Origin: Trichostrongylus colubriformis
Lineage: Eukaryota > Nematoda > Chromadorea > Rhabditida > Trichostrongylidae
DNA length: 64,000 bases
Direction of reading: 5' to 3'
Assembly (NCBI GenBank): GCA_963978905.1
Contig: OZ022257.1
Span: 5,652,965-5,716,964, forward strand
Shown here: piece after piece, positions 10,941 through 63,876 of the stretch
Layout of the letters: each line of letters opens with the position of its first letter
How positions within the stretch are numbered: position 1 is the first letter of the stretch
Translations under genes and position numbers: made by a program
Notes under the pieces: generated by a model
Database searches by the model: none
What the model was told of the DNA's origin: nothing
The model's input: only the letters and a program-made list of their open reading frames with translations

Positions 10941-13900
10941 ATGCTGCTTCTTCTCTTAATTGGTATCATTGCTGCTATCTGCTCCGCCAGCAGTCCGCCG
11001 GAAGGTGTGGTAGGCCTGGTAAGTGAATGTGAAGTGTAACGAAAATCCGTTAGTTCACAAGATGAACATAGATTCTATGTAAAGCTACCACAGTCCCTCA
11101 CATCCCCCAGGAAAAGCTACTATAGCATTTCTCAGGGCAATGAAGGTATAGAATGGTTGGTAGTGGAGGAAAGCATAACTGGAAACAATGTTTCTGGAAA
11201 TGAGACTAGTTATGAAATGACAGTCTGCTACGAAGCCAGCATTGAGGAAGGGCGTCTGATGTCTTAATCACAATCTCTCTACACTGCCATTTACCCAGCC
11301 TCGCATACGCCAGGCGAATTGTTGCGAGGTCGGAACAACGAGCGAGGCTGGCTGGCATGGCCCTTCGCTGTTGGCATCGTTCTCACATCTGTAGTGATAC
11401 AGGGGGGAACTATAGCTGTTTCATACAGTTCTTTCTCAGCCTTGCACTACAATTAGCACCTCAATTTTCATATATGAAGGAATCGTCCACGGAAATTCCA
11501 TGATTCTAATTTCTCTCAAGATCACTCCTCCACAAAAAGTACATAAAGAGAAAGTAGGAAGAACCTAGAAAATTTCTTCGTTGCAAAACAGAAATCGAAG
11601 AGCTTATGGTGAGCAACTCATTCAAATTCCCGCCGAGCAGCATTTGAACAGCCGTGGGCTGTCATAGTGCAGCTCAAAATTTCGCGCCCGATATTGGTTT
11701 GATCAGTGTCCCTCACCACGCGACCGTCGTCTCTTTTCTACTAGAACCCTCTCACTGTCGTGGGCCCGACTCTGTCGACATCGCTTTGCGGTGCACTACC
11801 TTGCCCCAATTCTTGTTTTTTTTTCACGTGAACCTCTGCATGCGACTCTTAGGAAGCAAATACGCCATGAATGTTCGGGTGAGAGGAGAACTCGAAGAAG
11901 CTTAAAGTTTTCATGGATAATCTGTTTAACAATCGTCCAAATTTGCCCCTACCCTGTCCTGTGAACAACTGCGCTGAGGAGAATAGTGCTGGCCGGGGAA
12001 CCCTTGTCGTTTTGGAAACTTTGCTGATCATTTTCAAGGGGCGAATTAGCTTTTCCGAAAAGTATAGGACTCCAAGGAAACTCTGATCGAAGATATTTCG
12101 AAGTGGGTGCAAGATGCGAAGTAGTTCCAAATGAAGCTAGTGAGTGTTCCTCGATGTATGTTCTTCTATGAATGTCTCAGAGTCACAACTGCACAGCTGG
12201 ATTAGGTCTCGCTCAACAGAGTATTCTTCCAGGATAACCAACACTTCATTTGAATAGATACGCCCCTTGCCGTGAGTCCCGCCTGCTAAAAAGCGGGTGT
12301 GTATCGTTGAGGAGCCATGATTCCGCACAGGAGAGTGCGGCGCAGGGAGCGATGCGTGTAATTAATCGGTGTCGTAAGTAATTGGTCCTGAGGCAATCCT
12401 CTTACTCCAAGTGAAAAAAGATGCAGAACACGGTGACTACCTTCAAAATCGGATTACATACGGTGCGACCAGCTCGTACGTACCACTTCAGACGCTGCGC
12501 GTATTGCTTCGTAAAGTTTTGTCTCATCGATAGCGATCCTCAAAACAGCCATAAACGAGGGAGGCTGCTGGTGATCCTCCTTGCTAGGGTCAAGTGCTGT
12601 TCAAGGCTTGTTGCTCTGAAGCTTTTTCAAACTATTTTGTGAAGCCACAAATGATAACGGACAGTCGTCGAGATGTTTATCCTGAGAGTACATTTTTTAC
12701 AGAATGAAAATGGTCGCTATGGACTTGCTGTCGACTTCTCCTTGCCAACTCCTTTCATCGGTCCACCAGTCTTTAAATGCTTGCGAGAAGCCGGTTTCAC
12801 GACTATTTTCTTGCCGTGGGTTTTCCATTTTATAACTGACTTTATAGAGCAATTTAATTTCTGTTGGAGCGGAAGTGGTGTAGTTAAAGATGGCGTCCAC
12901 TCCCACCAGCAAGGGGCGTAGATCAAATCTGGCATCAATACCCGCCCATGCTGAGTAGAACTTTCACACCTACGAAGTAGGGGAATAGGTAACGGACACG
13001 TCTGGAACGATATACGCACTGACTGGTACATCGCTGGCACCCGCAAGTCATTATGTAGGCCAAGTAGCATCCACATTTCACTGTCGCCAGAATTCCGAAT
13101 AGAACCGGAACGCATACAGCGTTCCATATGAAGCAATAATTAGTTCGAATACTGTATTTTTTCAATCATTATGTATTTTCTGGGAGCTGAATTTGGATAT
13201 GGAATGTCAAATCAGAAGACAACCGAAATGTAGGGCTTGGGGTGTTTGTTAAAATGTTTGGATAACTGGAAATAAAGTTCATACTATAAAATCCTTCGGT
13301 CTTGGCTACAGGTATAAGCCAAATTTTTGAACTGCATCCATATTCACCACAACATTTTCAGGTTTTTCCATATGAAAGGAAAAGGGAAGCGCATGGTGCA
13401 TTTCAAATTTCTTGGAATGGCGTATTCCGTCTTTGTAGAAATTAGCATGCTTTCATTGGAAAGCTAAAGAAGCTTTCGAACACGTCTCCTAGCGTAAAGA
13501 GAGGCGGGAACGACATGCTGCCAATTTCTCTCAAAAAGAGGCGGGAACGACACGCTGCCAATTTTTTTTCCTTTCACTGAGTATCCATTACATAATCACC
13601 TTTCGACAGTTTGGAAAGTGCCTTGAAGCCTCCAATCCGTAATGCTCAAAAATTTCGTTTTATTTCAAGAATCTCAAAGTTTCTATCACGTAAAATGAAA
13701 AACAACCATCAAAAGCCACGGTTATTCATGAGCAGGTTTTCTTTGCCTAGCATCACCTCTGGACTTGAAGCAGTACAGCGCGTTTTAACAAAGAAATCTT
13801 CTTCTGAAATCATTTAGTTAGGTACGTAATGTACTGATTGGCATGCAACAGCTGCTCGTCTTCACTGAGCAACTATATTGTTCACCGTGCCATGCCAGAA

Positions 13901-16900
13901 ATCCCGTTATGATTTGGACGTCACTCCTCGCGTAACCTGATCTAGTAGACAGCCTAGGGCACCTCTGCGTTCTGCCTGAACTAGACCCTCTAGATTGAAA
14001 CACAGAAGTAAACAGAACCTCTTAGCCTTGATAGAAGCGTAGAAGAAATAATTACCGTACTACTAATGAGTTACGGAATCACTCTTATACATCCGCTCTG
14101 TTATTCAATAGGAGATTCCAATCCCAATTTTCAGAGTATACGATGCGCATTCACGTAATCATTGGATTCCTAATGCTGTTTTTAATATACGCCGAGCCTT
14201 GAAAGGTCAGTGGATTTCAGGTGTTATACCACAGGTAGGAAATCTCTAACAACCACGTAGACATAACGTGGTTTCTCATTGGTCTCCTGCAGCGATTTTC
14301 AATTGCAGCTTTTTGTGAATAACGTAAACGACTTTATGGCAACATTTGAGTTTCATGAATAGCCACTAGAAATTTCCTGGCAATACTGTGAAAGTTGAAG
14401 GAATCGTACACGAAAATTACACGATTCCACTTCCACTCAAGCAGAAACACATAGCGTGTGTATAGAAAAACAAAAAGAGCCAAGAAGTGGTCCATTATTC
14501 CAGAGCAGAAATGAAAATCTGGACGAACAGGAGCTCGATTTAACTGCCGCCAATCCAACTTTCGAAAGTTGTGTGAGGGAGCAACGCAGTTTGAATGTGC
14601 CACGTCCCATATTGAGTTGCTTCTTACTTCTCCGATCACTGGTCTCCCCTTTGCTCCCATATATCTAGGGTTCTCGCCTCAACGGAGAGCCGACCGTATC
14701 GGATCATACTCTGAAGGGCGGTATTTCAGCCAGAATCCTAGTTTTTTTTCGCGTGGAAGATTTCAAATCTCCGTAAGCAGTTCTTTCGAAGGCAGTTGGC
14801 ACATCAATTTGGACCGCTCGCTCAAAATGAAAGTAGATATGCCATGTAGATGGTGAAGCAATAAGTAGACTAAGATTCAGGGTCAAAAGTCCGTATCTTG
14901 CCAGTCCACGCTTTTCGCGGGGCGTGTTTTACGATGCACCGTACCAGCGCCGCATCGATTGGAGCCACGGCAGGCGCAATACGGCGGCGTATCATGAATC
15001 GCGCAAGAAGTTTCGAGTCGCTTCGATCTTATACTTCAAATAAAAATGTTTCATGCCAAGATCAAGGCACTCAACTTCTCTTTCTTGTGTGAGGCATATT
15101 TCCACATCTGAGTAACCGAAGAAGCATCGTAGCTGATGTATTTTGATGCACGTGGAATGCAAGTGATCAGTAGCACATTCAGCCTGCAGAAAATTGTGTG
15201 CATTCCAATGTATGACCATTTTAGCGGGCCTCGGTGTGGAGGTCTATATGGTGCCTAAGACGCATCGATTTAAGGAAGATCAAGGATCAGCACAGATGAG
15301 GGAGGCCTTTAATGGTTTCAAATTCGCAAATCTCGGAGTCAGCAGGATTTGGGTTAAGGTGAGGGTTCATCTGTGATGAGATTTTGAAACGTTATGCAGA
15401 CAGAGAGTTGAATACACTTCATTTGGAAGCTTTCAGCTAGCAGCTACTTCGGAAGCATTTTGAATTTACGCGTGAATAGTGCCCATTTTTCTGGTCTTGC
15501 CTGCTCTCTAGACACTTCAAAAAACTATTATGACTCGATCCGGAGCTCAATGGCATGTAAAAAGCGATTTACAAGCCGTGACGAAGTGGAGCTCAAGATG
15601 TTTTCAAAAAAGTCTTCAGCTGGCGGTTTTTTTTTTTTTGAAATTGTCTTGAATTGGGACCTGATTTGCGCCCGTTTTCCTGCTCTTGTCTGCGCTCTCT
15701 GGACGGCACACACAGAGCTTTGAGAACTATTTCTTCCACACTAAATACAATTCCCTCGGGGCTTCTCAACCACTGCTTCGCCAAGCCTTTTTTCTCCTGG
15801 ATTACGCTCAGGCTTTCAGAGGGCGAGCGCATGTATGAAAATGTATGACCCGCAAATTTATAACAAACGGCGTATCAATTTCAGGTGAAATCGCAAAGCT
15901 TCGACCAGGATCGGGAGTACAATAGAGGATTCCTCAGAGAGATGATTTCTTCTGCAAGGGTACTGTACTCGTTAGCTGCTTCAAAGTTCCATTTTCCATT
16001 TACTGTCACGGCACTGATGAACATTTCCAGAAGTCTTAGTTCATTTAAGATAATTCGTGGTCAGGGGAAGGAGGTAATCGATAAGTACTCTTTAACATTG
16101 ATATTTGTTTGAAGAACCTCGGCATCGACGTCGGTTTCTTTACAAACCGGAAAAATTGGAATGAGATAACTAATGAATGGAATCTGGATGGACACCATCT
16201 TTGGTGAGTTAGAGTAGTGGTGGTTTGTGTACATTGCGAGTAGGTATTATCAATTTGTGGGTGTTTAAGTCACTGAAATCAATGTGGGTTGAGGCGCTGT
16301 GTTGAAAGCACACTCCTTGCTTGCAAGGAGACGGGAGGACCCTAATTGTCACTGGGAGGAAGTTCTGGGAGGCGGGAAGAGGGAGGGAGTGAGAACGTTC
16401 AAGGACACCAACGCCAAAGGATTCTGGCCTTAACGCTCCTCCATCAATGACAATTGAGCTCGTATCCGCCCTTCGGCAAAGATGGGCTGTACCTCAAATT
16501 CGTTCAGGTACTGGAACGTAACCAATGTTGGACGAGGCGGTGAGACTCCCGCTAATTTTGAAAACTTCCGTCCTTTCGGAGGTTGGACAGAACCAACTGT
16601 CAAACAGTTCGGTAAGAAGGAGAAAATCTGTGGAGTTACGGTGAACTGGTAAGTATATGCAACATATAAGTATGGGCTGAGCTGCTAAAATGGCGCGCAT
16701 TTTCATTCTTATGGAGCAGGAATCAAATGCTGCATCAACGCGCGTCAAGGTCAACAAGACTTCCATCCTTCCGAATCGGTTAATTGGTACAGACTCGTCT
16801 GGAAGGATGAAGGCATTGACTTAGACATCGGTTTTTACATCGCAAGCACACAAGTAATTGTATAGGCCAAATCCCATCACGATTCTGAGTGTAATTGGGA

Positions 16901-17718
16901 TGCAACTATAGACTGATTACTGCTGAAAACTTTATCCCTTTTCTTTTAATGTGCACATGAGCTCGATCGTGATCCTCATCCAAACTATACCCGTCACACA
17001 AACAAATGCGTTTACATTTGGACTCTGTAAAAAGGTCATTAATATATGTTTTGCGAGAGTTGACGGCTTGTAGAGTCCATTTTGTGAACTCTGCACATTC
17101 CATGATCTTTCATGTTCCAGCTAGGCCAATCACTCGTAGTGCCAGTAGCCATTCCCTGCATCCCTTACGCCCACCTTGCTGCTCCTTAGAATATCTGATT
17201 CATACAGGGTGCGACGAAAGTATTACCGTTTGAGAGAGCTTTGCCCTACGAGGATCACAACTTGATAAAATACTCCGTTTGGAGTAACCACAGAAGGCAG
17301 TCTTCGCTGATCCTCACAATTCAGTCAATTTTCTGGAAGGCACTGCATGGAAACTGAGCGGCGATTTGCATGACGAACGTCTGTCCCCATAGCAGGTACC
17401 TTCCCTCAACGTTCTCATCATTGAGTTCAAAGCAAAATCGATGATGTGAAATACTGGGGGATTGTAATGAAATTTTGTGGAAATATCACTCACCCGTGGA
17501 ACTCGTAGTGACACCTCCTCCCTTCGTAGTATGGTGAGGCAACCTTATGCCTATACATATATAGGATGATTGAGGGCAGTACAGCCACTGTCCAAAGTTA
17601 TTGTAGAAATCGTAACTATTAGTTTTCACGGAACTATGCCTGATTATTATACGAAGTTTCCTTCAGGAATGTCTATGATGTGCAACGTCTGAGAGACTAC
17701 GAAACCCAGGAAGACTAA
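10941..17718 (+). CDS. Secreted GH25-type lysozyme-like protein, copy A (8 exons)
   Basis: Exons: 10941-11018, 12703-12815, 14135-14205, 15225-15358, 15885-15959, 16115-16203, 16508-16648, 17667-17718. Phases agree throughout and give 250 residues. Residues 1-16 form a signal peptide (hydrophobic core to ICSA). The GH25 barrel follows: strand-1 V-D-F (Asp37), C-L-R-E-A-G (Cys52), G-L-G-V-E-V-Y-M (89-96), R-I-W-V-K-V-K (128-134), F-F-T-N-R-K-N-W (165-172), L-W-Y-W-N (186-190), E-T-P-A-N-F (199-204), K-Q-F-G (219-222) and C-G-V-T-V-N (228-233). Layout and landmarks match nematode LYS proteins of the Entamoeba-like GH25 group, which act in gut defence and digestion. The canonical D-x-E is K132-x-K134, so hydrolysis by the usual mechanism is doubtful. 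Exon 6 uses a GAAG acceptor. Intron 7 starts with an in-frame TAA, so its retention would end the protein at Trp234. Function is inferred from family. Confidence 0.9.
13501..13567. repeat. Short tandem duplication in intron 2 of gene A
   Basis: GAGGCGGGAACGACATGCTG followed by CCAATTT at 13501 is repeated 40 bp later with one substitution (ACACGCTG). It is intronic with no visible role. Confidence 0.75.
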
Positions 17719-18240
17719 TGTCAAGTGAAACTTTCGACACCGCTCTCAAAGGAACATCGTTGTCATAAGACTAGCTGTTGCTCTTGATATTTAATATGGG
17801 GAAAAATACAATAAAACTCTGATATGAAAATCACTGGCAAACATTTACAGTAACTGCTAACACTACGCTGTTTCACGAACAATATCAATACTTATCATAG
17901 GATCCAGCAATATACCTCGAAAAAGTGAAACTAAGACAAACAAAAGCGAAAAAAAGAGAACTTGTCTGACATACAGCTTCTCCAATGTAAGGCTCTACGA
18001 GGCGAGGCGTCCGAGGTGGCGGAGCCGTGAGGGCCTTAGGGTAGAGAGAAGCTGTCACGTGCTCAGTGAGACTGAGAAGCGATCCATTTTGAGGCGAAAA
18101 TTTAGACTGCGTTTCTCTCACTGACATCTGCTCGCATACTGTTTGGCGAAAGTTCATACGATTTGTTCTCCTTCCAGTTTCTCGACCTCTGGATTGAAAT
18201 AACGGGAGTTCTCGGTTGTTTTCGTGTTTCTGTTCATGCA
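17719..18240. other. 3' flank of gene A
   Basis: The first 200 bp match the 3' flanks of B (from 33324) and C (from 50663), including 'tggaactttcgacatcgctc'-like sequence, and contain the poly(A) signal. Sequence 17940-18240 is unrelated to the other units. Its 125-codon minus-strand ORF (17885-18262) has no recognisable domain or counterpart and is not called. Confidence 0.5.
17810..17815 (+). terminator. Poly(A) signal of gene A
   Basis: AATAAA 92 bp after the stop codon. Genes B and C carry AATAAA at similar distances, supporting use as the cleavage and polyadenylation signal. Confidence 0.55.
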
Positions 18241-19600
18241 CTGTATCCCGCATGTGCCGCATGTGGACCTAACCGTAATCAAGGAGAAAAAAGGCGTAGT
18301 GAAGCAGTGGTTGGGAAGTAAAGAGGGAGTTGTCTTCAGAGTGAAGAGACTAATTCCCAAGAAGTTCTAAGTGTGGGTTGTCTATAAAGAGCAGACAAGA
18401 CCAGAAAAATAGGCGCAATTAACGCGTAAATTTAAAATGCCATTCAAAAAAGCTGCTAGCTGAAAGCTTTTAGATAAAGTGTCTTCAACTCACTGTCTGC
18501 ATAACTTCACAATATCTCAGCACAGATGAGCCCTCACCTTAGTTTAAATCCTGCGGATTCCGTGATTTGTGGAGTTGAACCATAAAAGGGCTAGGCATCT
18601 GTGCTGATCCTTGTTCTCCCCTGAATCGAACCATATATTATACATCTCCATGCCGAGATCTTCTGAAATGATCAACATTCTAATGCACACAGCTTTCTGC
18701 AGGCTAGATGTCCCACTGATCACATGTATACCACGAGCATCGAAATACACCAGCAACGATACTATGGTTGCTCAGATATGGAAATCACGCGCAACACTAT
18801 AAAGAGAAGTTGAGTGCCTTACGCTTAACATGAAACGTTTTTAGTTAAACGCCCACTGCGAAAACCATGGAGCGGGAATTGAAACGAGCTGCTGTTTATC
18901 CAAAATCTTAATTTATACAATGGAGGCAAGGGTATTTTATGGCTCCTTCAGTGTTTCTATTCACGAACAGAGTCTAGTAATGTGATTTCGAGAGGAAATC
19001 GAATCGTGGAATTTTTGTGCGCGATTCCTTCAACCTTCAAATTCCTGCCAGGAAATTTCTATTAGCCATCCGTGAAATTTAAAAGCTGCCATGAAGTCGT
19101 TTATGTTTCTCACAAAACGCTGCAATTGTAAATCGCTGGAGGCGGGCACCATCATGAAATCATGTTACGTGGGCCCATGTCGAGGTTTGAAAGGTTCTTC
19201 ATCTGGGAATTAAACGTGGCAACTATTAACCTTGTACGGCTTGATGTATATTGGAGAAAGATCAGAAATCCATTGAGGACGCTTGCACTCTGAAAAATTT
19301 CTATCAAAATCTCTTATTGAATAATTGAGGAAATGAATGAGTGACTCCGTTACTTTTCTCATCTCTTCTGCGCTACTACCAAGGCTGAGTTAAGGGGTCC
19401 AGTTTTAACTGGAGACAGATCTCTTAGGACTGTCCACTAGATCAGGTCACGCGAGTAAGTGGCGATGAGGCCGCGACCAGCAGGCGCGTGGAGAGCACGC
19501 TCACGTAATTCTCATGGCGCCGTGACATTGTTGGACAGTACTGGCACACAATGTGACAACCAAGTCGGTACGTTAAGTATCTGGCTGACTGTTTCTAAAA
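18240..19600 (-). pseudogene. Inverted partial lysozyme pseudogene (exons 3-4 and flanking introns)
   Basis: Read on the minus strand, this block is collinear with the gene-A interval from about 13700 to 15830. It retains an intron-2 tail, a shortened exon 3 after a TTTTTCAG acceptor (about 19235-19293), intron 3 and a clear exon 4 relic at 18662-18538. The exon-4 relic still reads D-L-G-M-E-M-Y near its start and G-I-R-R-I at its end. It is 9 bp shorter than exon 4 of A and B, and a TAA follows R-R-I where the tryptophan codon should be. Exon 3 has lost its frame. Exons 1, 2 and 5-8 are not seen. It is therefore a dead, truncated, inverted copy. Confidence 0.85.
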
Positions 19601-24155: not shown

Positions 24156-24693
24156 ATCTGTGATTGGATGTAGCCAAATGGCGCTACCTTCCCTAAAGCG
24201 ACAGTGAATGCTAGGAAAAATGTGTGATGTAGGTACCTTGATAATGTTAAAGTACGGAGCCCTTGAGGCAGTGTGAATGCTCATCGGATACTGCTCTACT
24301 CACACATAACACGGGCTTTATTAAATGAGCTCATTCAAGCCTTCAAGTTACAGCATGTCGCCTTTTTTGAAACTGTCATGACGGTGTCTCTTGCAGACAT
24401 GTCCTTGTTGCGTGGAAGTAGTAGTTATGGTATGAGATATTTCAATCGCGTATGGTTTCATAATATGACATTACTGTTCCAGCCTTAAACACCTTCCCAT
24501 TGACAGGTTACGAGCACCCGATTAATCCTTAGCTAGCTCTGTGGTCATGTATGGACTGAATCGACAATCTTCAGATTGATTGAGTCTTTCTTTTAATTCA
24601 ATCTTCAGATTGCGGTGAGTTGCTCAACTTATGGTTACTTGGTGGTCTGGGTGATCTCGAATAGGTTGACGATGTGTTTGGTCGGGTAGTCAT
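24156..24693. other. Non-coding block of unit B
   Basis: Sequence 24200-24540 matches unit A 6660-7060, including 'ttaaat-gagctcatt'-type text and AATGCTCATCGGA. An insertion of about 240 bp (24560-24800) begins after it and contains a duplicated AATCTTCAGATTG motif. No gene. Confidence 0.5.
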
Positions 24694-24752
24694 GAATTGC
24701 CTTGATCCCTTCGGGCTCTGAAGAAGGCGATATCGCCGAAATGTTAGGCAAT
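24694..24752 (+). ncRNA. Hammerhead-ribozyme-like fold (candidate relic)
   Basis: In order: a strand ATTGCCT, then TTGATC (possible cleavage site after GATC), a CCC/GGG mini-hairpin, CTGAAGA (fits the CUGANGA core, 24718-24724), the hairpin GGCGATATCGCC, GAAA (24738-24741), TGTT, and AGGCAAT, which pairs with the first strand. This is the order of parts in a hammerhead closed by stem III. Stem III has an internal loop and stem I is weak, so activity is doubtful. The insertion carrying it is absent from unit A. Related hairpin plus GAAACGTC blocks in repeats may lack catalysis altogether. Confidence 0.25.
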
Positions 24753-27242: not shown

Positions 27243-27388
27243 GCTATCACAGTTATAAAATGGTCTTAGACACCAATCAGTTTGTTCCCCTCCTGCATGC
27301 GGACAGACAGACATACAGGTCGACCAACCGACAGACAGACACACGAAGTGTTTATATCGTAGAGCGATGTTTGCCAGTTTATGCTTGT
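27243..27388 (+). promoter_or_regulatory. Conserved 5'-proximal block of lysozyme gene B
   Basis: Equivalent of the gene A block: GCTATCACAGTTATAA, a GACAGACAGACATACAGG motif and TTTGCCAGTTTATGCTTG. It keeps its position relative to the ATG. Promoter role is inferred from position. Confidence 0.35.
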
Positions 27389-27538
27389 GATTTTTGCTAA
27401 AGAACCTACTGTAAGAAGTGATCAATGGCATTCTCCTTGATAGTCTTTAGCGAAATCTCCTCCTGTTTGATACGTTGCTGTCGCACGCTCCATATACAGT
27501 CTACTTTGTCTTTTTCCATTGTGAAATGATTTGGTTTG

Positions 27539-27545
27539 TCTTCAG
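27539..27545 (+). promoter_or_regulatory. Probable trans-splice acceptor of gene B
   Basis: TCTTCAG four bases before the ATG at 27550, aligned with the TTTTCAG of gene A. Confidence 0.45.
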
Positions 27546-27549
27546 AGTG

Positions 27550-41280: not shown

Positions 41281-41298
41281 CTGTATATGAAACGCTTC

Positions 41299-41370: not shown

Positions 41371-41390
41371 GTCACGAAATCAGGTATTGT

Positions 41391-44263: not shown

Positions 44264-44272
44264 TATCGTCAG
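44264..44272 (+). promoter_or_regulatory. Probable trans-splice acceptor of gene C
   Basis: TATCGTCAG two bases before the ATG at 44275, aligned with the A and B acceptors but less T-rich. Confidence 0.4.
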
Positions 44273-44274
44273 AG

Positions 44275-47200: not shown

Positions 47201-50200
47201 ACCGGACGGAACACACACAAAATTATTCTGGAAGATCCCCTTCTTTTCAAATATAACTCACTCAGGACTCCTAAGCCTCCCGTCACGAACAAGCATTTTG
47301 TTGCCTCCCTTTTTTGCGGAGCTGTCATCTCTGCTTGCTGCCGAAGCACCCTTAAAGACACCGTTAGGGGCAATTTCGGCAAATTGGGGGTTACGAAAGT
47401 AGAGGTGCTCAGTAATATAACAGTGAAAAAGTACGACATAAAACGGCGACAAAATCAAGAAATAGGAACCCGAAATTCCCCCTTCCCTCTCTCGTCCTCT
47501 GCGTCTGTGGTCGGAGTGGACTGAAGACAGGCCAGAGTCTAAACCAGCCGGCCGCGATTGTTGTCTCCCGCCCCTCCACGTCGACTCCCCTGGGCGCATA
47601 ACGGCATAACGACATGACGAGCTGCGGGGCCGCCATAGGACGCCAAGTTGCGTTTTTTATGCGATTTTCACCACATGTGACCCCTTCTGAAGTAGAAGGT
47701 TCGTTTCAGAGAACACGTACTTCCGGATCTCAGTTTTCCCTTACCCCAAATGGTGCCTTTGAGTATACAGGCGATCCTACCCGCTATCTTCATGATGTTC
47801 AGCTACTCATGTAATTCAGAGCGGATTCTGCCTTCACGGCGCATGTATACGATGTATTATCCTCAGTTTCAACGAAAAAAATGCCAATTCCAGGTGAAAT
47901 CGCGAGAAGGCATGGAAGAGAACTGGAACAACACTAGAGCCTTCTTCACTCAATTCATTTCCACTGCTCGGGTACTGGATTGCATAGTCTCATAATGTTC
48001 CATTTTTCACTTCCACGGCACCGATGAATACTCCCGGAAGTCTTTGCTCATTTGAGATAATTCGTGATTAGGGGGAGGAGAATAGTCGACAAGTACCCCA
48101 TAACATTTAGCTTTCACGCACTTTGCCATTAATAACGTTTGTAGGACTTTAATGTTGATGTTGGTTTCTTTACAAACCGGAGGAACTGGATCAACATAAC
48201 AAACGATTGGGAACTGGAAGGACACAAACTCTGGTGAGTTGACTATGATTACTAGTCGAAAGACCTAATTGAGTAGCGATTGTGTGTACATTCCAAAGTC
48301 AGTCGATAGCAAATAGGAATTATCGACTATAGGCGCTCAAATCAAAGAAACCGATCTGGGTTGAGACACCGTGTTGAAAGCCCACTCCATGCTTGTTAGG
48401 AGACGAGCGAAACCCTGATTGTCATTGGGCGAAAGCCATAGGAGGCGTGACAAGGCAGGGAGCATGAAAATCTGAGGAGTTAACTCCGAACGGAAATGGT
48501 CTTATCGTTCTTTCACCAATGACAATCGAGGTCCCCCTCGCACCTTGGCAAACATGAACTGCACATCAAATTTTCAGGTACTGGAACGTAAGGGATGTCG
48601 GACCAGGCGGTGAGACTCATGCCAATTTCAAAGACTTCCGTTCTTTTGGAGGTTGGACAGACCCGACTGCCAAACAGTTCGCTAAGAAAGAGAACATCTG
48701 TGGAGTTACGGTGAATTGGTAGGTTTTATACAGCATATAACTAAATATGCACGGAGGCGGTGCAGTGATAGGTGAAGCGCATTTCCACTCTCCTGGAGCA
48801 GGAATCAAATTCTGCTTCATTTCGTTTTCAGAAGCTTCAATTGGTGCAAACTCTTCTGGAAAGTGGTGAAGCAAAAGAATAAGAAAAGTAAAGTGGGTAG
48901 GAAGGCACTAACCTCGACATCTCTCAATACGTCGAGGGTGCGAAGCCATTGTAAAGGCCATATCGTACCTATCTCCCACACGATACTGGATGAAATAAGA
49001 ATGCGCGGTCCATGCAAGCAAGCGGTGATTAACGTCAAAAACTTTGTCCGTTATCCCTCAACGTTGACTCGCTATTATTCTTGTCACTCTAGTTGTCACT
49101 AATGCTTCACCTTTCGCTGGGTTTGTGAACCGCTCTGAGAGGAAACCATGCCTTTTTTGTAGTGAGCACAATGTGATCGATTGCACACTCCGATTCAGAC
49201 GTGTTTGCAGCAGTGATAGGGGTAATTCGGGCAGAATATGAGAAGGTTATCAAATATGAAGGTCGACGTGCTTAGTAGGAGAGCTAGTGAAGAAAACGAC
49301 TACTGTGAAGCTTGGGAGTCCCTAACTTCATTGGCAATTTCTCCACAGTCTCACTGTACCCATAGGTTTCATTCGCGTTACCCAATTTAGCAGCTTCCAC
49401 TACCCACACTGCCCCTACCACTGTCTTCAAAAAGGCTTAAACATCGCTGATTTCACCCGAGTTGTCCCGATTTCTCGGCTGCTCTGGAGCTGAGTTACGA
49501 GCAGTTGGAACCGTAATCGCCGCCTAATCTGGACACGTCCCGACCATTGAGGGCGTGTCACGTTTCACTGATACAAGCACCTTGATCATCCTTGCCCACA
49601 TTTTACCGACGTCTGCGCTTCCTTGAGACAAATTATAAAATTCCTCCTCCCCTCCCTACCCCCGCCTAGAACGGAATATTTCAGCCCACACCTCGTCCAC
49701 CGTGTGCGGAGTCTCACATGCCCGCATGCCTTTGGACATCCAAGGCTGTTCTCCACCCATCTCATGCTTGACCCGGCCTACCGCGCTTGTTTCTCAGGCA
49801 ACGCCGATTTTCGGATGGACAGACGCCAACAACAAACATACACACCAACAGCTTTGGTTTATAAAGGCTATTGTCATCTCTGGCCCATACGCACTGACGA
49901 AGACGGCGAGGGAGAGAGCATGTCTTCGGACGCAGGTGATGGTCGCTAAAGTATATTTCAAAGAATCGGGTACATTGTAAGAAGTAATGATGCCTCGCTT
50001 TCCGAGTCTTCGAAAAGTGTCCTCCGGGTCAAAATTCACAGTGCTGGTGGTCGTTACTGCTAGGTGGTATCGTGGAAGTTATACTGATATGACTGTTGTA
50101 GTCATTACGCTTTGCAAGGCTGCGTGTCGACGATGTTGAAATCGTTGAGCTGATTGTTACAACTGAAATACCGTTTGTGTGGAATATTGCTAACACCACC

Positions 50201-50662
50201 TCCAGATTTGCCGCATTTCAATCTGCTTGAACTCTCGTACCTTCGCCAGCGGAGTCTCCGCTAATTCTCAAAATTCAATCGAATCTTTGGAAGCTTGACC
50301 GAAAGTTATGGAGGTGATGATCACCTGTCACCCAAGGCAGATGCTTTCCTCACTGGCATCGTCACTGTGTCCAACATCAATTTAGCGAAACATGTTATGA
50401 TGTTTGTGAAAACGATTATCGATCACGCACAGCGGTTTAAATCATGTTGACACCCCCTTTCTTCAAAGTATGGCAAGGCTTTGTCAAACGCTCTCGCCTC
50501 ACCCCGTATATAGTACGATTAAGGGTAGCGTTGCCAGAATCCAATACTCTTTGTGGAAATCATAACTTTCAATTTCCACGGAATTTGGCTACTTCCTACA
50601 TTTTCTACAGGGACGTATACGATGTGCACCGTCTGAAACACTACGGAACAGAGAAAATCTGA
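44275..50662 (+). CDS. Secreted GH25-type lysozyme-like protein, copy C (8 exons)
   Basis: Exons: 44275-44352, 45507-45619, 46090-46160, 46876-47033, 47894-47971, 48145-48233, 48578-48718, 50611-50662. The open frame is 259 residues. Exon 4 is 24 bp longer and exon 5 3 bp longer than in A and B. The extra exon 4 length comes from a 30-bp tandem duplication at 46917-46976, giving two successive 10-residue copies (residues 102-111 and 112-121, both ending Q-M-T). Signal peptide ends near I-C-F-A. Strand 1 has A-A-D-F; strand 4 reads R-I-W-L-K-V-K. E-T-H-A-N-F replaces E-T-P-A-N-F and K-Q-F-A replaces K-Q-F-G. The terminal exon encodes D-V-Y-D-V-H-R-L-K-H-Y and ends in TGA. Exon 6 uses a TAG acceptor. 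Introns 4 and 7 carry extra DNA relative to A and B (about 47280-47650 and 48900-50150). Signal and first-exon sequence pair it with copy D. Lysozyme role is inferred from family. Confidence 0.88.
47280..47650. other. GC-rich insertion in intron 4 of gene C
   Basis: Sequence here, ending with GCCGGCCGCG and CCCCTCCACG type tracts, has no counterpart in intron 4 of A or B and is more GC-rich than its surroundings. I see no terminal repeats or gene. Origin unknown. Confidence 0.4.
48900..50150. other. Extra DNA in intron 7 of gene C
   Basis: Intron 7 is 1892 bp here against about 1 kb in A and B; the extra part does not match them. It holds open frames at 49623-49949 and 49702-49980 with no recognisable domain. 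Before exon 8, similarity to B resumes near 50300 ('gatgatcacctgtcaccc'). Confidence 0.45.
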
Positions 50663-51118
50663 TTTCAAGTGGAACTTTCGACATCGCTCTGAAGCAACGA
50701 CGACACAGAGCAGTTGGAATTCACAATAAATCCTCATTCATTTTTCAGCTTTCAAAAAATTTTTGTCACACCATCACCGGTCACTCTAGATTTAAAATAT
50801 AAAAAACTGTGATAAAAACCTCGATATGAAAATTACTGGCTATCATCTACTAATATTACTTTGCAGTCCCACAAATAATATCAGTAGATATAAATTTCTA
50901 CACTGAACATGGAAAAATTGAACTTTGACGGTCGTTTGGAAAAAATTCCTTGTTTTTCTCGTGTGAGGTAGATCTGATATCGTTTTGATAGGAATAAGAA
51001 AAATCAAAGTCTACATCGTAGTTAATGAGAACATTCAGAGGTGCGGTACCAGGCACAATAATCGTAAACCTTTCGTACTAAGCTTTCTGACAAAAAATAT
51101 ATTGACCCGCCAGATTCC
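50663..51118. other. 3' flank of gene C
   Basis: Matches the 3' flank of B for about 200 bp, then becomes unique up to the mariner relic. No gene. Confidence 0.5.
50725..50730 (+). terminator. Poly(A) signal of gene C
   Basis: AATAAA 63 bp after the stop, in the same TTCACAATAAA context as in gene B. Confidence 0.6.
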
Positions 51119-55105: not shown

Positions 55106-58100
55106 TGAGAAAGCTTTATGGTTTTTTCCCGAGACTGGCTACGGTTCAACCACATATCCTAGAAATGGACCGAGATTTCTTCGCGGTTCCGAAATGATTT
55201 CATTTACGGCATTACGTAGACTGCGTATGGATATGTGGAGATCCTTAAGAGTGGATAGAAATTCACATCTTTCGGTTCACTTATTGCAATCTCGTACAAC
55301 GTCTTTGATGCCATTCAAATGTCTGGTGAGACGTTGCTCGGTGGTGGCCAGTGTAGGATGAGAAGAACTTGTCCCGAACCTAGGACGTTAATGTGAGACA
55401 GATGTGGGTTGAGACTATTGAAAGCATGTGAGGGCAATGAATGCTGAAACAAGTGGGCATGTTGACAGAAAAGTCTTCCATAGCGGGTTAAGAATGTCAG
55501 CATTTGCGAGGGATTTTCGCCAAAAATATTGCAAGTGACGGGAGATTACCAGCTTACCGATAGTGTGCCTTCGTGCACAACTTTCAAAAGGGATATGATC
55601 ACGTCATTGCATGTGTTTATCTAATACACATAGTTATTAGAGCATATCCCTCATGTGCGCTCACTTAGGATTTTCCACCTTCTGTTAGCGTTAAAAAATC
55701 CTCCATAGTACTATCTGGAAAAGGTGTGTACTGTCTAATTAAAACTGATGAACTGGTGTTTTTGACTGTTTCTTCAAAGGTGCACTCCAAGCCTACTGTG
55801 TAACTATTCATTTTCTGTCAGTGTTTAAAAAAAAGTCCATAGCACCACCAAACAGAACATTGTACCACCTGACAATGATATTGACGAATTGCCCTTTATG
55901 ACTGACCCTTTTGGACGCACACGTGATGCATGAATATCTCGAAATTGTCCTTTTTCTGTTGGATTCCAAAAATATCCTTAATGGCACCACGTTACGAAAG
56001 TCTGGCTGAATAGTTGAAAGTGAGAAATCGATATTTTCGACTCAACTCGTGAAAATAATGCTTTTTCACTGTAACTAGCACTGCAAGCGTTTGCATTGAT
56101 ATTCCTCAAACCATTTTCTCTCAGGACGCTGATACAAGTCATGAAAATTGGGTCGTCGCCTCGAAGTAAACCGCTTCACATGACTGCTGTGACGAGACGT
56201 TGCCGAATGTTGCATTCCTCTCTTAAAATGACAGCGTATGCTAGTAGAACAGTTGATACGGATACCTCAATATTGCTATAGTAGGGTGCCCTTCTGACTA
56301 TGTGGATGTTCATCTGTTTAATTCTGCTTCACCGACACATGACTCTTCTTGAGTGGGTTCATGTGGCCAATTGACAACATATCACATGTTGTGAGAACTG
56401 TGGTACTGTTAATAGTTTGCGATTCAAATCCTGAATCAGTCTATCGATATGTGTATAAGAACCCTGATCTTTGTAGAAAATTGTTCTGTAAAGCGCATTC
56501 TCAGGGCTTGTTTGGAAAAGGACAGCTGGTAAAAAATCGGAAGATGGTTAGCAATGCAAACTCTTTAAATCAAATTTCTGCAAGCATATTTGTACATGTT
56601 CTTGATAGCTTGGTTCATTCCACAGATTTGGACATTCAAATGACCGTCATAATGGAGGACAAGATACTAGTTGTAAGGTGCGCCTATCTGCTGTTTTGCC
56701 ATATCGCGGAACTGCCTCTGGAATCTTTTCACGCACTTCCCACCAATCATACATGGTGAGCGTGATATTTCATTCTACACGATCTATGCATCAAGCACAT
56801 TGCCAGAAGACTGTGGAGGTGGGACTCTCATTTTCTGTCGGGATTCGAAATCCACCGGCTAATTGCTCGGCATCCAAATTGACATTCAAATTGCCGTGTC
56901 ATCCAAGGCCAGATACTCGCTGTAAGTCACACTGGATTGTTGTCCAATGTCCTCCCATCCTAAACAGCACTTCTGCGGTCATCAGATCGCTGATATTCAG
57001 GATACACATCAAAATCTGTATTTGCCATGTTTCTAAACTGCTTCGAGAATCCTTTCATGCATCCTCCATCACCCATGACCTGTGAGCGCGATATTTCACT
57101 TTACCCTGTCTATGCACAGTGCACTTTGCCACAAAAATGTAGAGGCGGGCTCTGGCTCCCTGTTGGATTCATTAGTGGATCGGCGGGCATATAAATTGAC
57201 ATTCGAGTGGCAGTTGTAACCTAGCACCAGATACTCGTTGTAAGGCAACGAATCTGGCATCCAATGTTTTCCCTTCAGACAACCCTACGCCGACTCTACA
57301 ATAGTCGGGGCACCCGCTCTCTGTCATAGAGACGGGCTCCGACTCCCGCTGAGAAAGATAGCCTGTACGATCGAGTCCATGTCAGCATTACTCCTCGGTT
57401 TGTTTCCTCCCTGCAAGCGAGCGTGTGACAGTGAGGAAGGCCGCGCTCCATCCATCCTGTTACCGAGATTTATGCAATCACATCGCCAAAAATTGCCTCT
57501 CGAACAGGCCCGACCTTAGCGACTGCGATTTGATGCTGTAAGCGTGGACTATGATGCTTCACCTACCTGTTCAGCTATACCTTTCCGTGTTGGGTTACAG
57601 GTAATAAATAATAAAGGTAATAAAGAGATTTATTTCATCATATGTTTGAACAGTAGCCATTGTGTCTTGGTAGTTTGAGCCATTGCTCTCGGTGATAAGG
57701 AAATGAGGTGGGTATGATGGCTCTCCTTGCACCTGGAGCTTTTATTCGGATATCATTGACTACATGGTCATAGAGGCCACGATAGAAACACTACGGTAAT
57801 TAAGACGATTCCGTTCGATCTAGACATTACCGTCTACCGGAAGCTGCTGAGTGTAGAATTCTCGAACAGAGTGTAGAAAACGAGTAATTCTGCGCCGCCA
57901 TCATTTTGAAGTGGTTCCCCTTTTGAGTGATTCTTGGGTGGACCACAGACTTTTAAATCTGAATTGCGAACGTACAGCAAGACTATGTTCTGTGGAAACG
58001 TATTTCCCTGGCTGAGCCCATTTTGCCTATCCTCGGTACTTTACTGCTCTTTCCTCACCCGTTTTCTGGAAGCTTCCTCTTACAAATCTCTGGATCGGTT

Positions 58101-58116
58101 TCAGACTGCCTTTAGT
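55106..58116. other. Upstream non-coding region of gene D, distal part
   Basis: Collinear with 36500-40640 of unit C, with the 229-bp duplication missing. It carries the paired cassette (about 56690-56830 and 57000-57160) and the four-way conserved stretch 57660-57845. No conserved frame. Confidence 0.6.
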
Positions 58117-58118
58117 CA

Positions 58119-58251
58119 GTCTGTTTGCAATGGCTGTTTGCAATAACCTATTTCCGACTGTCGCGCTGGTACATTATAGAAAACTCGCTTCGCTTGATAA
58201 GTCTGTATCTTCTTCGATAAAGGTCATTGCAAACAGCCATTGCAAACGGAC
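58119..58251. repeat. 26-bp inverted repeat with an 81-bp spacer
   Basis: GTCTGTTTGCAATGGCTGTT with TGCAAT at 58119-58144 is mirrored at 58226-58251. The unit C equivalent (about 40612-40730) shares only the outer parts, so the inner inverted part is D-specific. It may be a small foldback element. Confidence 0.75.
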
Positions 58252-59429
58252 TTACAAGAAGCGTGGTCTGAATGCTTTCGGGCGTTCATATGTTTGCATC
58301 GTAACTGTTCTACTTATCCTGACGATAGGTACCTCTTTCCAATTATCAATTAGTTTGCTAACCTTCGAGTATTTAGTGAACAACTTTCCATTGTTTACTT
58401 ACTGTCACATCTCGCGAAGATATTACATTGCTCATTTTTTGATATAGCTCTCAGATCTCCGTTGGTCTTCTCCCTAACCTGTTCGTAATGTTCGCATTTT
58501 CAAGCTGTCTCGATTGTTATACATTGATCCAGAAGTTTGAGCGCCATATCCAATACAGATAGCAAAGATGTAACGTTGCTAAGAAACTATGGTCACGGCG
58601 CAATTGGGAATACTGTCAACAGTTGGAACAAGTGTACTGAGTTATGGGCATAATCCTCGGTCTCGGACTGAACTCGAACCCGCACTCCATGCTCGAGTGC
58701 GTCTTTTAGCCTGGGACTAAATGGGAAAAAGAGCGCCAGACACAATGATAAAGCTGAGTACGGTTTGGTGACCTCTTATCAAGAAAGCGCGAAAATTATC
58801 TTGTATTCGTTTGGAAATGTGAATCTAATATGTAGAGCGGTTTTCATCCGATCAATACCTATCTCCACGGTTTCGAACACCTCGCACATTTCCCAACTTT
58901 GCTTTTCCACAAAATGCAGACTCCGCAGTTCTCCCGATTTATACTTATCCTATCCCTTTCCGCGGTTTCAGAGACTCCGCAAATCCACGATTCTGCTTCC
59001 ACAAAAACGCAGATTCAGCAATTCCCCAGTCGATATGTATCTCATCCCTGTCCGAGGGTTCCACAATTTCGCACATTCTGCAATTTTGCATTTCCATAAA
59101 GGCGCAAATTTCACAATTTCGCACATCTCTTTCTAAATTTCTCTGATCTTCTCGACTCCCTGTGGCATGGAAATCGATACCTATTTAATGCTTTATTCTT
59201 TATCGACTTCCGCAGATCCCGCAGTTATGCAATCCCGCAAATTCCAAAACTATAAGTGCTGCCTCACCGCCAATATATCTTAAGCTCTTGAAGATAAAGG
59301 GGATTTGCTGCAATTTGCTGTTCCGTTACAACCGTCTACATGAATTTCAATGCACTAATCTTCTATGAATTCAGCAGCTCGCGCAATGGCTGCCGGTGTT
59401 TTACTTAGAAGTTTATATAAGTGAGAGAT
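58252..59429. other. Upstream non-coding region of gene D, proximal part
   Basis: Matches 40730-41160 and then jumps to 43200-43960 of unit C, skipping the 280-bp array. It includes the low-complexity TTCCGCA-type repeat (58860-59250). No gene. Confidence 0.55.
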
Positions 59430-59577
59430 GCTATCACAAATAAAACACGGTCTTAGACGGCAATGAATTGTTCTCCCCTGCACACACGATAGGACAGACA
59501 TATAGTCTAAGAAATCGGCCAACACACAGTCATAAAAGTTTACAACGTAGAGCGATACTTGCCAGTTTATACTTGTG
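59430..59577 (+). promoter_or_regulatory. Conserved 5'-proximal block of lysozyme gene D
   Basis: Fourth copy of the block: GATGCTATCACAAATAAAAC, a shortened GGACAGACATA motif and TTGCCAGTTTATACTTGTGG. Function is inferred from position. Confidence 0.35.
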
Positions 59578-59669
59578 GTTTCCGATTTTATTTCTGCTTG
59601 TTATGTTGTCTGTCGAAGTCTCCAAATACAGCCGTTTTTGTGTTTTTCCATTGCAAAAGAATTTGGCTC

Positions 59670-59679
59670 ATCGTCACAG
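59670..59679 (+). promoter_or_regulatory. Possible trans-splice acceptor of gene D
   Basis: ATCGTCACAG one base before the ATG at 59681. It is shifted by two bases and less pyrimidine-rich than in A-C, so this acceptor may be weaker. Confidence 0.35.
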
Positions 59680-59680
59680 A

Positions 59681-62600
59681 ATGTTGCCTGTTTTCTTAAT
59701 TGGTATCATTACTGCCATCTGCTTCGCCGACGTTCCGCCGGAACCTGTGGGAGAATGGGTAAGTGAAAGTAAAAGTAACGAAAATTTATTGAGGCTGCTC
59801 GAAATGAATATGGATTTTATATTATGGTGACCACGCTCCTCTCATCCCCGTAAAAAGCTATCATTGCATCTTTCAACGAATTGAATTCACCGAATGAGTG
59901 GCAGTGGTGTGTGAACGATGTTTTCTAGAAATAAGACCATTTATGAAAAGATAATATGTAGTGAAAATAACACTGAGAAAGGCGCCTCGTGGATTCCATC
60001 CGATCTTGCTGCCGGCCATTCATGCGGCCTCGCATACGCTAGGCGAGTTGTTGCGAGGATTGGTCAACGTTCGAGAATGACCGGCGAGACCCCTTACCGT
60101 CCGCACTTCCTGGCCGCGGGTGTAGGTTGGGACACACGAATCTAGGCCGTGACCCTGTAACAGCCTGTGGCCTTTGACCTAAGCCTTAAATAATTCAGAC
60201 AATTTGTTCATGTAAATCGTGTCCTCCTGGCAAGTCTGTTCCGTTGTATAGTCAAATTGTTTGAATTATTCATGTCACAGGGCAAAGGCCACAGGCTGTC
60301 ACAGGGTCACGGCCTAGATTCGTGTGTCCCGACCGTCACCCCCTGGCCGCACTACGACGGACGCACTACCTTCTCAAACGTCACCTTAAGGAGCGCTATC
60401 ACGGTCTGAAGCTTATTTTTTTCTGCGTGAAAGTTTGCATGCGGTCCTTATAAAGCAAATAACACGTACATGGAGGCTACGAAGTATGGTATGGTGATTC
60501 TCCACTTGTAAAGGTACAGAGGGCACATTTTTTTCCCTGAAATTTCGGCATTTGGTAGGCATCATGTAGGGAACATATATTCGAGGAATCATTCCAAAGG
60601 GATGCCTCTAGTCAATGTGATAGCTCTTGAGATCTCTGCAGCTTCCATGACAGGCCGCAACTTACTGTGGAACCATCCGGACTGCAGGCAAGGAATACGC
60701 ACGAGCTCCTTCTTGAATTTTGCGTACGAGATTTTATTCCATCGCAAAGCGAGCGAATCTTGCACGATGTCGAGCTCGTGGGAATTCTTAGAGGGGTTCG
60801 ACCACCATTAGCGATTTCTTGAAATAAGTGCACTGCACACTTTTAAGTCATACTATGTTTAATATGTGGAACTGAGAGAGGAAGTTTACGTCAGTGAGCT
60901 GCTCTGATATTGGCGGACCATTGTTTGTAGCCACGCTGTAGATATATGGGTAGCAGAAAAGCACGAAAAAGTTTAAATTCCTGTGGATGATTCCTTTGAC
61001 AATCGTAAAAAATCACTCCTCCCGCTTTCTGTAACCAACTGTGCTATGCGGGGCAGCTTTGGCCAAGGAATCCATCCCGTGTTATCCCTTTTAGCTGGCG
61101 ATTTTTGCTGTTTCGAAAAGGTAATTTCCGGCAAAGATCTAACGACGTGATGTACAAGGTGTGAATAATTGTTGTTGCGCGGTTGAAAACCGAATATCTT
61201 CGGTAAGGTGCATCGAAAGAAACGAAAATCGGGTGATGTGCATTCATAGCCGTTCCAAACCATATGTTTTCGTTATATTATCATCAGTTCGATCCACTCT
61301 CGTCGATTTCGGACAACGGCGCTTGGACGAGGAGTCGATAACAGGACGTGAAGTGACGAGCACCTGTGGTTGTTGTTCTTGAGCAAGAAACTCCTCGCCC
61401 ATCTTAACCCCATGAACAACTCCGTTTGGGACTAATTGGAAAGGGCCTGAGAAACACCTCACCGAAGGTTTGAATCTCTCATGGCTCTCCTCCGGAGGGA
61501 GTGGACAAAACTCGACGCGCCCTATCATTGACTCATACCCCAAACATCTACCCGCCAAAATCAAGGAAGTCGAATCGGAAAGATGATAAAATATACGGTT
61601 CAGGATCGTGGTGAGTGTTGCACTCTAGCCCGAGACATTCTACATATTTTTAACCCCGTAACAGTATTTTGTAAACAGCGAAGCAAAATTGAATGGAGTG
61701 CATGAGATTCCTACTTCTTTTGTGAATTTCTCAGAAACAGAGCTACACCGGTGGGTTGAGTTCCGCTCAACAGAGTTTTCTTTCAGCCCAGTAAAACCAT
61801 CACTGCATTTGGGTGGATATCCCCATTGCCGTTGGCCCCTCTCTCCAAATAGCGGTTGTATATAGCTATGAAGGTAAATTTCCCACAGCGGCATGCGGCG
61901 TATGCGATTCGTGCGAGCTAGAGGTATCGTTTGTAATGGGTTCCCCTCGTTCTGTGTGAAAGTAAGGTGCAGAACACAGTGATTCCCTTTACGAACCAAC
62001 CTCAAACGGCACATCCAGCTCGCATGCATAGTATTACGCGGCGCGCACATCGCTTTGCAACTCTGTCTTATCGATGCGCAACCCCAAAGCAGCAATGAAC
62101 AGGATAGACTGCTAGTGTTTTTGCTCTAGCTGCTCGGGGCTGGTTGCTCCAGAGCTCTACCAAACTATTTTGTGAAGCAAGAAATGATAACGGATTCCAT
62201 CCTGTAGAGTCATTTTTACAGAATGGAAATGCTCGCTACGAACTTGCCGTCGACTTCCCCTCGTCAATTCCTATCATCAACGCAACGGTTTTTAGCTGCT
62301 TACGAGAAGCCGGATTCACGATTGTTTTCTTGCCGTGAGTTTTCCATTTTATAGCTGATTTTATAGAGAGTAATATACTCCCTGTCGAACGGAGGTGATG
62401 CAGTGACAGATGGCGTCCATTCCACCTGCTGATCTAATCACACATCAATGCTCACCTAGGCTGAGCAAGTTCCTTATGCCTCCGAAGTAGGAGAATTGGT
62501 AACGGACTCGTCTCGGAAGACAGCTTTTTATCAAAACAGTATCAGAATGCACTGTAGCTTGGAAATGAATTTGGTTATGGAAAAACAAATTACAAGGAAA

Positions 62601-63876
62601 CCGAAATATAGTGCTAAAGGTCGTTGCTAAGATAGTGGATAAGTTCACACCACAGAACCCTCCACAGGGATGACTGAGATTTTCAGGCTTCATCCAAATT
62701 TATAACGACATTTGACACAGCTGTCAAATAGCATAGTTTTAGTGTGGAAGAATAAGGAAAGCGCATAGTGCGAACAAGCTTTCTTGGAACGTGTTAAGGG
62801 TTACATATTTGTAAAAGTGAGACACCTCTCCGGGAGTTTTACCGAAAAGCTACGGAATCACTTCCATACATTTCCCCGGTTATTCAGTACAAGATATCAG
62901 TGAGATTTTCAGAGTGTACAATGCGCACAAAAGTCCTTATTGGATTGTTAATGCTGTTCTTAATATTATGGAAGCCTTAAAAGGTAAGTGGTTGTCAAGT
63001 CTTTATTCCCAGATAAAGAATCTTAAAGCGCCACATGGACCCACATCACGTGATTTCTTAGTGCCCCTGCAGCGATTTACAACAGCAGCTTTTTTGCGAC
63101 GTAAACTACTTCGCATTTAAGTTTTACGGATAGCCACTAGAAGTTTGCCGACAGTGAAGATTTAAGGAATGTGCACGGGAATTCTATGATTCCCGTCTGT
63201 CTGAAAACCACTCTGCTAGATACATTTTGTGAATGAGAGCACGAAAATAATCAGAAAATGACCTTTCATTCCATCGCAGATATTGAAAATCTGGATGAAA
63301 AGCAGTTCGTTAGAATGACATTAAGCTTATGAGACAAAAGAAAAAACCAACCAAAAGCTATGGTCGAATCGTATTGAATTAATCCACGGTTTTTGCAGTG
63401 GGCGTGTTTCCAATGCGACGTACCACCGTCGTTTCGATTGCAACGCTTATCTGTGACACATGCGAGGATCTGCTTTGGTAATGCGTGCAGTTGGTTGGGG
63501 TGCAATACAAGGGCGGATCGTGACTTGCGCAAGGGGATTTAAGACGCTTCAATCCCATATTTTAACTCAAAACGTTTCATGCCAAGATTGAGGCGCCCAA
63601 CTTCACTCTATTGTGTTGGGTATGAATTCCATAACCGAGTAACCATAGTATGGTAGATGGTATATTCAGATGCTCGCGGGATACACATAATCAGTGGCAC
63701 ATCAAGCCTACAGAAAGTTTTGTGCATTCCAACGTTTGACCATTTCAGCGGGCCTCGGTGTGGAGGTGTATATGGTGCCTAAGTATCATCTATTCAAAGA
63801 AGGAGCAGTGCAGATGGCTGACATCTTTCATGGTTTCAATAACTCAAATCTCGAAATCCGCAGGATTTGGGTTAAG
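59681..63876 (+). CDS. Secreted GH25-type lysozyme-like protein, copy D (first 4 exons; continues past the window)
   Basis: Visible exons: 59681-59758, 62222-62334, 62913-62983, 63749-63876, all open, giving 130 codons. Exon 5 would be expected beyond position 64000. Signal peptide to about I-C-F-A, then V-P-P-E-P-V-G-E-W as in copy C. Strand 1 reads A-V-D-F-P, with P-S-S-I-P where A has S-L-P-T-P. Exon 3 gives V-Y-N-A-H-K-S-P-Y-W. Exon 4 is six bases shorter than in A and B and has a single copy of the ten-residue stretch duplicated in C. It ends R-I-W-V-K, so the first Lys of the K-x-K replacement is visible. Intron 1 is enlarged by a Mutator-type foldback element and by another insert of about 480 bp (60480-60960). 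Lysozyme role is inferred from family. Confidence 0.85.
60118..60341. mobile_element. Foldback MITE with 9-bp target duplication (Mutator-like)
   Basis: A perfect 9-bp duplication CCTGGCCGC lies at 60109-60117 and 60342-60350. Between them are inverted arms of about 95 bp that begin GGGTG, pass through GGGACACACGAATCTAGGCC and CCTGTGGCCTTTG, and meet in a short centre. Nine-base target duplications and long terminal inverted repeats are hallmarks of Mutator (MULE) elements. Located in intron 1 of gene D; no other gene copy has it. Confidence 0.85.
60480..60960. other. Extra DNA in intron 1 of gene D
   Basis: Absent from intron 1 of A, B and C. It holds overlapping ORFs on both strands (60602-60811 + and 60612-60833 -) with no recognisable domain, and no terminal repeats. 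Origin unknown. Confidence 0.4.

Follow-up and report, generated by a model that had tools for sequence, protein, structure and literature searches.

Array and gene models

The stretch analysed here (hereafter the window; 64,000 nucleotides, C3:5652965-5716964) is part of the 330.9-Mb genome of the nematode Trichostrongylus colubriformis. It holds part of a tandem array of genes for GH25 lysozyme-like proteins, which appear to keep the barrel fold of this family and to have had its catalytic acids replaced. The array comprises at least seven genes (g1-g7) over 110 kb. Four of them begin inside the window (Table 1), and three more (g5-g7) start in the adjoining sequence at 76992, 90221 and 111417 in window numbering; exon matches beyond the window in the worm's own genome lie at 5717952, 5733796, 5750288 and 5771962. 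An earlier note, made from the letters of the window alone, had described four genes, arranged head-to-tail and with the same exon phases throughout, on repeating units of about 16 kb. The array is real and its ends had been placed exactly, from the first ATG at 10941 to the end of g4 exon 4 at 63876, as had the spacing of 16.6, 16.7 and 15.4 kb (16,609, 16,725 and 15,406 nucleotides from start to start). The array is, however, larger than described, and with the further distances of 17,311, 13,229 and 21,196 nucleotides its units measure 13-21 kb.

Frame-wise reading of the repeated blocks gave eight exons with equal phases in each complete gene, alike in all seven. All 49 introns are bounded by GT and AG and no internal stop was found in g1-g7, which bears out the claim that the frames are intact in every copy. 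The proteins share 60-75% of their amino acids. Exon 8, chosen by eye among numerous candidates because it alone was similar in three copies, consists of 16 codons and a stop in g1-g3 and lies 0.96-1.9 kb 3' of exon 7; in g5 the tail is shortened by a stop five codons early. Exons 5-8 of g4, which is cut by the window edge, end at 67027, and its full protein has 248 amino acids. The g2 protein, spliced prior to any database search, is identical over 250 amino acids (100%) to GCK32_013891 of T. colubriformis, which supports the gene model, although GCK32_013891 is apparently a prediction too. For g1 there is a close but incomplete counterpart model, GCK32_010923 (P0003). A related gene with the W-I-Q form of the site lies about 34 kb upstream of g1, at -27.6 to -23.4 kb in window numbering, and matches P0115 (GCK32_010925).

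Duplicated units and growth of the array

Compared with itself, the window showed blocks on the same strand and in the same order, offset by about 15-19 kb. With a unit taken from the end of the previous gene to the end of the gene, same-strand matches of 71-75% identity, mostly non-coding, covered 22-59% of the first unit in the six pairs of adjacent units. Ten first-order Markov resamplings of unit 2, each set against units 1 and 3, yielded no matching piece in 20 comparisons. Whole units were thus duplicated, non-coding DNA included, as had been claimed. The closest among the 21 unit pairs were 3-4 (59%), 1-2 and 2-6 (47% each), 4-5 (46%) and 3-5 (45%).

In a protein tree of 28 rows, with a midpoint root used for drawing only, the array formed a single clade (support 97/93) with the groups (g1,(g2,g6)) and (g5,(g3,g4)), among which g7 had no settled place. 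P0002 of T. colubriformis was its sister (100/99), followed by P0115 (98/95). Since g6 groups with g2 and g1, the growth of the array was not a plain neighbour-by-neighbour series. We posit that it grew by duplication of 13-21 kb units from the lineage of the adjacent upstream W-I-Q gene. Broken exon-7 fragments were seen between later units outside the window, at 69874-69980 (inverted) and 102009-102146 in window numbering.

Selection on the array genes

The ratio of nonsynonymous to synonymous substitution (dN/dS), computed pairwise by NG86 over the whole coding sequence, was 0.40-0.71 across the 21 pairs of g1-g7, which are not independent. The upper bootstrap bound (100 resamples) stayed below 1 in 20 of the 21. 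Exons 2-4 gave 0.40-0.83 and exons 5-8 gave 0.30-0.70, with the higher value in exons 2-4 in 18 of the 21 pairs. Synonymous distance between the array genes was 0.29-0.56, and intron distance among the four window genes, from rough alignments, was 0.40-0.65 and so near or above it. The genes are under purifying selection of moderate strength, the first half evolving faster, and positive selection is not indicated. The earlier note's view that selection keeps the proteins agrees with this, as dN/dS, which it had proposed as a check, was below 1 in every pair.

Fold and family membership

A GH25 (beta/alpha) barrel fold is supported for the array proteins by predicted structure, so that the family label given in the earlier note stands as far as the fold is concerned. 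A first structure model, made from seven sequences, likewise came out as GH25 (pLDDT 72.5); structures were compared among the folds listed by VIA-align. Sequence profiles were less telling. The Pfam GH25 family (PF01183) gave no match for g1-g3 at E up to 1, a search in which the HMMER filters drop most matches above 0.1; three of nine phage GH25 proteins, scanned as a control, scored 78-128 bits against a cut-off of 27. A search of the worm's own genome with PF01183 returned no match at E 0.01, and because exons were searched separately, this does not show that T. colubriformis is without a canonical GH25 gene. Direct sequence search of the PDB with g2 did not place the array. A profile of 23 members gave chance-level PDB matches only, Cellosyl among them at E 3.6, and with 35 members Cellosyl came out on top (E 0.023).

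Homology of g2 to a nematode family with the motif W-x-Q-V-T is clear (P0002: E 4.8e-64, 98% covered; P0004 and P0005: E 1.6e-36, 96% covered). The array site itself does not carry this motif and reads W-x-K-V/A-K/N instead. Judged by homology and tree position, the array is a derived branch of this family (protist-type lys, clade 1). A hydrophobic N-terminus suggests that the proteins are secreted.

Catalytic site

In nine phage GH25 lysins around Cpl-1, the residues D10, D92 and E94 are invariant. Profile alignment of the nematode family with these phage proteins (hhalign; probability 91, E 1e-6) placed Q-V-T on D92-x-E94, and profiles starting with g2 placed K132 and K134 on D92 and E94. 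Within the array, the D92 position is Lys in all seven genes and the E94 position is Lys in six and Asn in one. The equivalent of D10 (Asp37) is kept in 7/7. So are W187 and Q220 of the cleft, and Y166 is kept in four genes with Phe in the other three. The D182 equivalent, placed by eye since hhalign ends before that position, is Asn233 in all seven.

The wider family shows the same loss. Among 119 homologues, the D92 column held Gln in 106, Val in six, Lys in two, Leu in one and a gap in four, hence Asp in 0/115. The E94 column held Thr in 101, other residues in 11 and a gap in seven (Glu in 0/112). The motif W-[ILV]-Q-V-T occurred in 90/119. Cleft Tyr, Trp and Gln were kept in 114/117, 115/115 and 116/116, and of the 91 homologues readable at the D10 equivalent, 86 had Asp. 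These counts include all rows, of which P0001 and P0003 are array genes or close copies. They are biased by word-based searches, the last of which was limited to the 7,992 candidates with the most words in common; relatives with D-x-E may be missed, and the absence of the acid pair is claimed for the family found, not for every nematode GH25.

Given that no readable homologue has an acid there and that Q-x-T is conserved, loss of the acid pair probably preceded the array by a long time. The site was then probably held as Q-x-T and turned to the lysine form in the array. Elsewhere on C3, 13 exon-4 stretches carried Gln in 11 cases and Lys in two; the latter lie at 20.14 and 20.16 Mb, next to Q-type copies that resemble them. 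By the look of these exon-4 peptides, which were compared without a tree, the lysine form arose there a second time. Further family loci were seen at 58.54-58.66, 17.88, 20.07-20.21, 29.62-29.63 and 1.58 Mb, all on C3 among the matches listed.

Other sequence in the window

In total, 78 stop-to-stop open reading frames (ORFs) of at least 95 amino acids were listed, a listing that may miss other genes with short exons. Ten were scanned against Pfam and one was above the cut-off, matching HTH_48 (ORF 51068-51505, E 8e-7). It belongs to a broken mariner/Mos1-like transposase at 51068-52100; the following ORF, without Pfam match, was read by eye as its continuation. After this relic comes a 98-nt palindrome (52260-52457, 94% complementary). 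A search for other genes in the units returned no Rfam match and no tRNA. At 23278-24164 lies a 225-nt inverted repeat, 95% complementary with arms 437 nt apart, which looks like a foldback element; its two arms resemble each other more closely than the units do. Comparing the 23.2-24.3 kb inverted repeat with plasmids by megablast, a search of little use, gave no match. Another inverted repeat of 132 nt (7331-7620, 94% complementary, 26-nt loop) lies inside a second such pair (7196-7277 and 7762-7843). A tandem repeat of 177 bp in 1.9 copies (90% matches) occupies 3733-4072. ORFs at 35416-36092 resemble a broken reverse transcriptase by eye; two were scanned, without Pfam match.

Table 1. Genes, unit copies and relic of the array in the window (window numbering).
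Feature	Position	Strand	Details
g1	10941..17718	+	exons 10941-11018, 12703-12815, 14135-14205, 15225-15358, 15885-15959, 16115-16203, 16508-16648, 17667-17718; 250 amino acids; site W-V-K-V-K
g2	27550..33323	+	exons 27550-27627, 29261-29373, 29933-30003, 30963-31096, 31463-31537, 31717-31805, 32172-32312, 33272-33323; 250 amino acids; site W-I-K-V-K
g3	44275..50662	+	exons 44275-44352, 45507-45619, 46090-46160, 46876-47033, 47894-47971, 48145-48233, 48578-48718, 50611-50662; 259 amino acids; site W-L-K-V-K
g4 (cut by window edge)	59681..64000	+	exons 1-4: 59681-59758, 62222-62334, 62913-62983, 63749-63876; site W-V-K-A-K
Unit copy 1 (upstream flank, introns, gene)	6628..17759	+	collinear with copy 2
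Unit copy 2	24156..33392	+	from self-comparison
Unit copy 3, nearest to copy 4	36512..50730	+	from self-comparison
Unit copy 4, runs on beyond window	55193..63971	+	from self-comparison
Degenerate inverted relic of the exon 3-exon 5 region of a unit, between g1 and g2	18268..19142	-	76-82% identical to g1 DNA; exon 4 degenerate

Proposed function and rival explanations

According to our analysis, the locus is probably a tandem array specific to this lineage, in which seven or more intact genes encode secreted, glycan-binding GH25-fold proteins without the GH25 muramidase site, a reading that we favour while leaving considerable room for doubt. The array proteins would no longer cleave peptidoglycan. 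A glycan, either bacterial peptidoglycan or a host mucin or epithelial glycan, may instead be bound in the barrel cleft, which is retained and would now have two lysines on its floor. The kept predicted fold, the aromatic cleft, the conserved replaced site and the intact, secreted-looking frames would suit a binding protein better than either a muramidase or an enzyme in decay. Without the first 16 residues, the computed net charge of the array proteins is -5 to +5, which makes a general cationic action unlikely, and the lysines would act locally. The earlier note had suggested a secreted lysozyme-like role toward bacteria or host in a gut parasite. The gut parasite is correct, as T. colubriformis lives in the small intestine of sheep. 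Lysozyme activity is not supported, with the catalytic Asp and Glu replaced in seven of seven genes and no Pfam GH25 match for g1-g3, and a role toward bacteria or host is possible by binding or by a mechanism other than the known one of GH25.

More tentatively, and with less confidence than we give to the array itself, the proposal may extend to the whole nematode protist-type lysozyme family, including the lys-1/2/7/8 type of Caenorhabditis. Its members would be glycan-binding GH25-fold proteins with a Q-x-T site, non-enzymatic in the GH25 sense. In Trichostrongylus this site would have become cationic (K-x-K) and been multiplied, once in the array and a second time in a pair of genes near 20.15 Mb, and would serve to bind gut glycans of the host or of bacteria.

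Several points weigh against our favoured reading of the array. Alignments with g2-first profiles are weak (hhalign probability 2, E 0.022, and probability 57, E 1e-4), so the residue pairing leans mainly on alignment A4, and a HMMER alignment with Cellosyl (E 0.023) put Gln on the Asp and the Glu in an insertion beside Thr. With Asp37 kept, an altered hydrolytic mechanism is still conceivable. The upper dN/dS bound of the g4-g6 pair is 1.12, and values of 0.4-0.7, rising to 0.83 in exons 2-4, are also expected under relaxed constraint. Finally, C. elegans with lys genes knocked out is less resistant to Bacillus thuringiensis (Boehnisch 2011, PMC3169628), which could mean activity despite the missing acids; lys-5 is from the other clade.

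That the proteins function as lysozymes through an altered set of catalytic residues, the kept Asp or others taking over, is in our judgement unlikely. The near-invariant cleft Tyr, Trp and Gln and the retained D10 equivalent speak for it together with the knock-outs, against which stands the lack of an acid at both the D92 and the E94 position in all array genes and all readable homologues. The Q and T found there (106/115 and 101/112) are strongly conserved, unlike scattered residues. The E94Q mutant of Cpl-1 is reportedly inactive. According to the title of its structure entry, this mutant was crystallised with a peptidoglycan analogue. Slightly less probable still are relaxed, decaying duplicates, a functionless expansion whose frames survived by chance. 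The faster exons 2-4, the early end of g5 and the inverted, broken exon relics within and between units would suit decay, but seven genes with eight in-frame exons and 49 intact introns have persisted at a synonymous distance of 0.29-0.56, and the full-length dN/dS bounds quoted above, from pairs that are not independent, fall below 1 with a single exception.

An assembly artefact, with haplotypes or repeats strung together, had been named in the earlier note as a condition that would overturn the array, and we regard it as very improbable. The first units are rather evenly spaced, as such an artefact might leave them. Matching stretches, however, differ by 25-30% in DNA, the tree order does not run from neighbour to neighbour, and the window lies within a 61-Mb contig. 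Moreover, a g1-like gene, g2 and the upstream gene each have a model of their own in a second set of T. colubriformis records, which carries GCK32 tags and has contigs of 13-51 kb; the contigs of GCK32_010923 and GCK32_010925 both measure 50,942 bp and are probably one.

Relation to known lysozymes and significance

Canonical GH25 enzymes (Cpl-1 of phage Cp-1, Cellosyl 1jfx, Aspergillus fumigatus 2x8r) have the barrel fold, the first Asp and the cleft Tyr/Trp/Gln in common with the array, which differs from them in lacking the catalytic Asp and Glu and in the Asn, placed by eye, at D182. Rv2525c of Mycobacterium tuberculosis (4pmo and related) is likened to the array as a structural neighbour only. 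Homologues from Necator, Ancylostoma and Anisakis (P0004, P0005, P0014), annotated as Glycosyl hydrolase family 25 or Lysozyme, are 33-36% identical to g2 and also lack the acid pair; their site is W-x-Q-V/I-T, in contrast to the Lys form of the array.

The Caenorhabditis protist-type lysozymes outside clade 2 (lys-1, -2, -3, -7, -8) belong to the same family as the array, and their genes are likewise clustered (Schulenburg and Boehnisch 2008, PMC2383907). The C. briggsae proteins P0044 (291 amino acids) and P0061 (276) have the lengths given for Cbr-lys-1 and Cbr-lys-2 (PMC2383907), which on this ground they probably represent; both carry W-I-Q-V-T-S-P and fall in the tree with the array family. 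No C. elegans sequence was among the homologue matches. At the site, the array has Lys where the Caenorhabditis genes have Gln, and Lys or Asn where they have Thr; it also differs in comprising seven genes on 13-21 kb units in a parasite. Larval secretions of H. polygyrus contain Lysozyme-1 and Lysozyme-2 (PMC3744408), and the H. polygyrus homologue P0039, not equated with either, reads W-V-Q-V-T-S-P.

The lys genes of nematodes have been interpreted as coding for antibacterial enzymes, both in the immunity of C. elegans (PMC3169628, PMC5406411) and in the secretions of parasites such as H. polygyrus (PMC3744408). In the portions covered of PMC2383907, PMC3169628, PMC4985157, PMC9528173, PMC5406411, PMC3744408, PMC6186814 and PMC4241558, no statement on the loss of the GH25 acids in nematodes was found, and we make no claim that this loss is unpublished. 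What is new here is the seven-gene array of proteins with a predicted GH25 fold and an altered site, together with the absence, as aligned, of the acid pair from all readable homologues found. If the family found lacks this pair, the name alone is no ground for assuming lysozyme activity, and some other effector or mechanism would be needed where worms alter the gut microbiota. The array would offer a clean case for following how a fold is used after its catalytic site has been lost.
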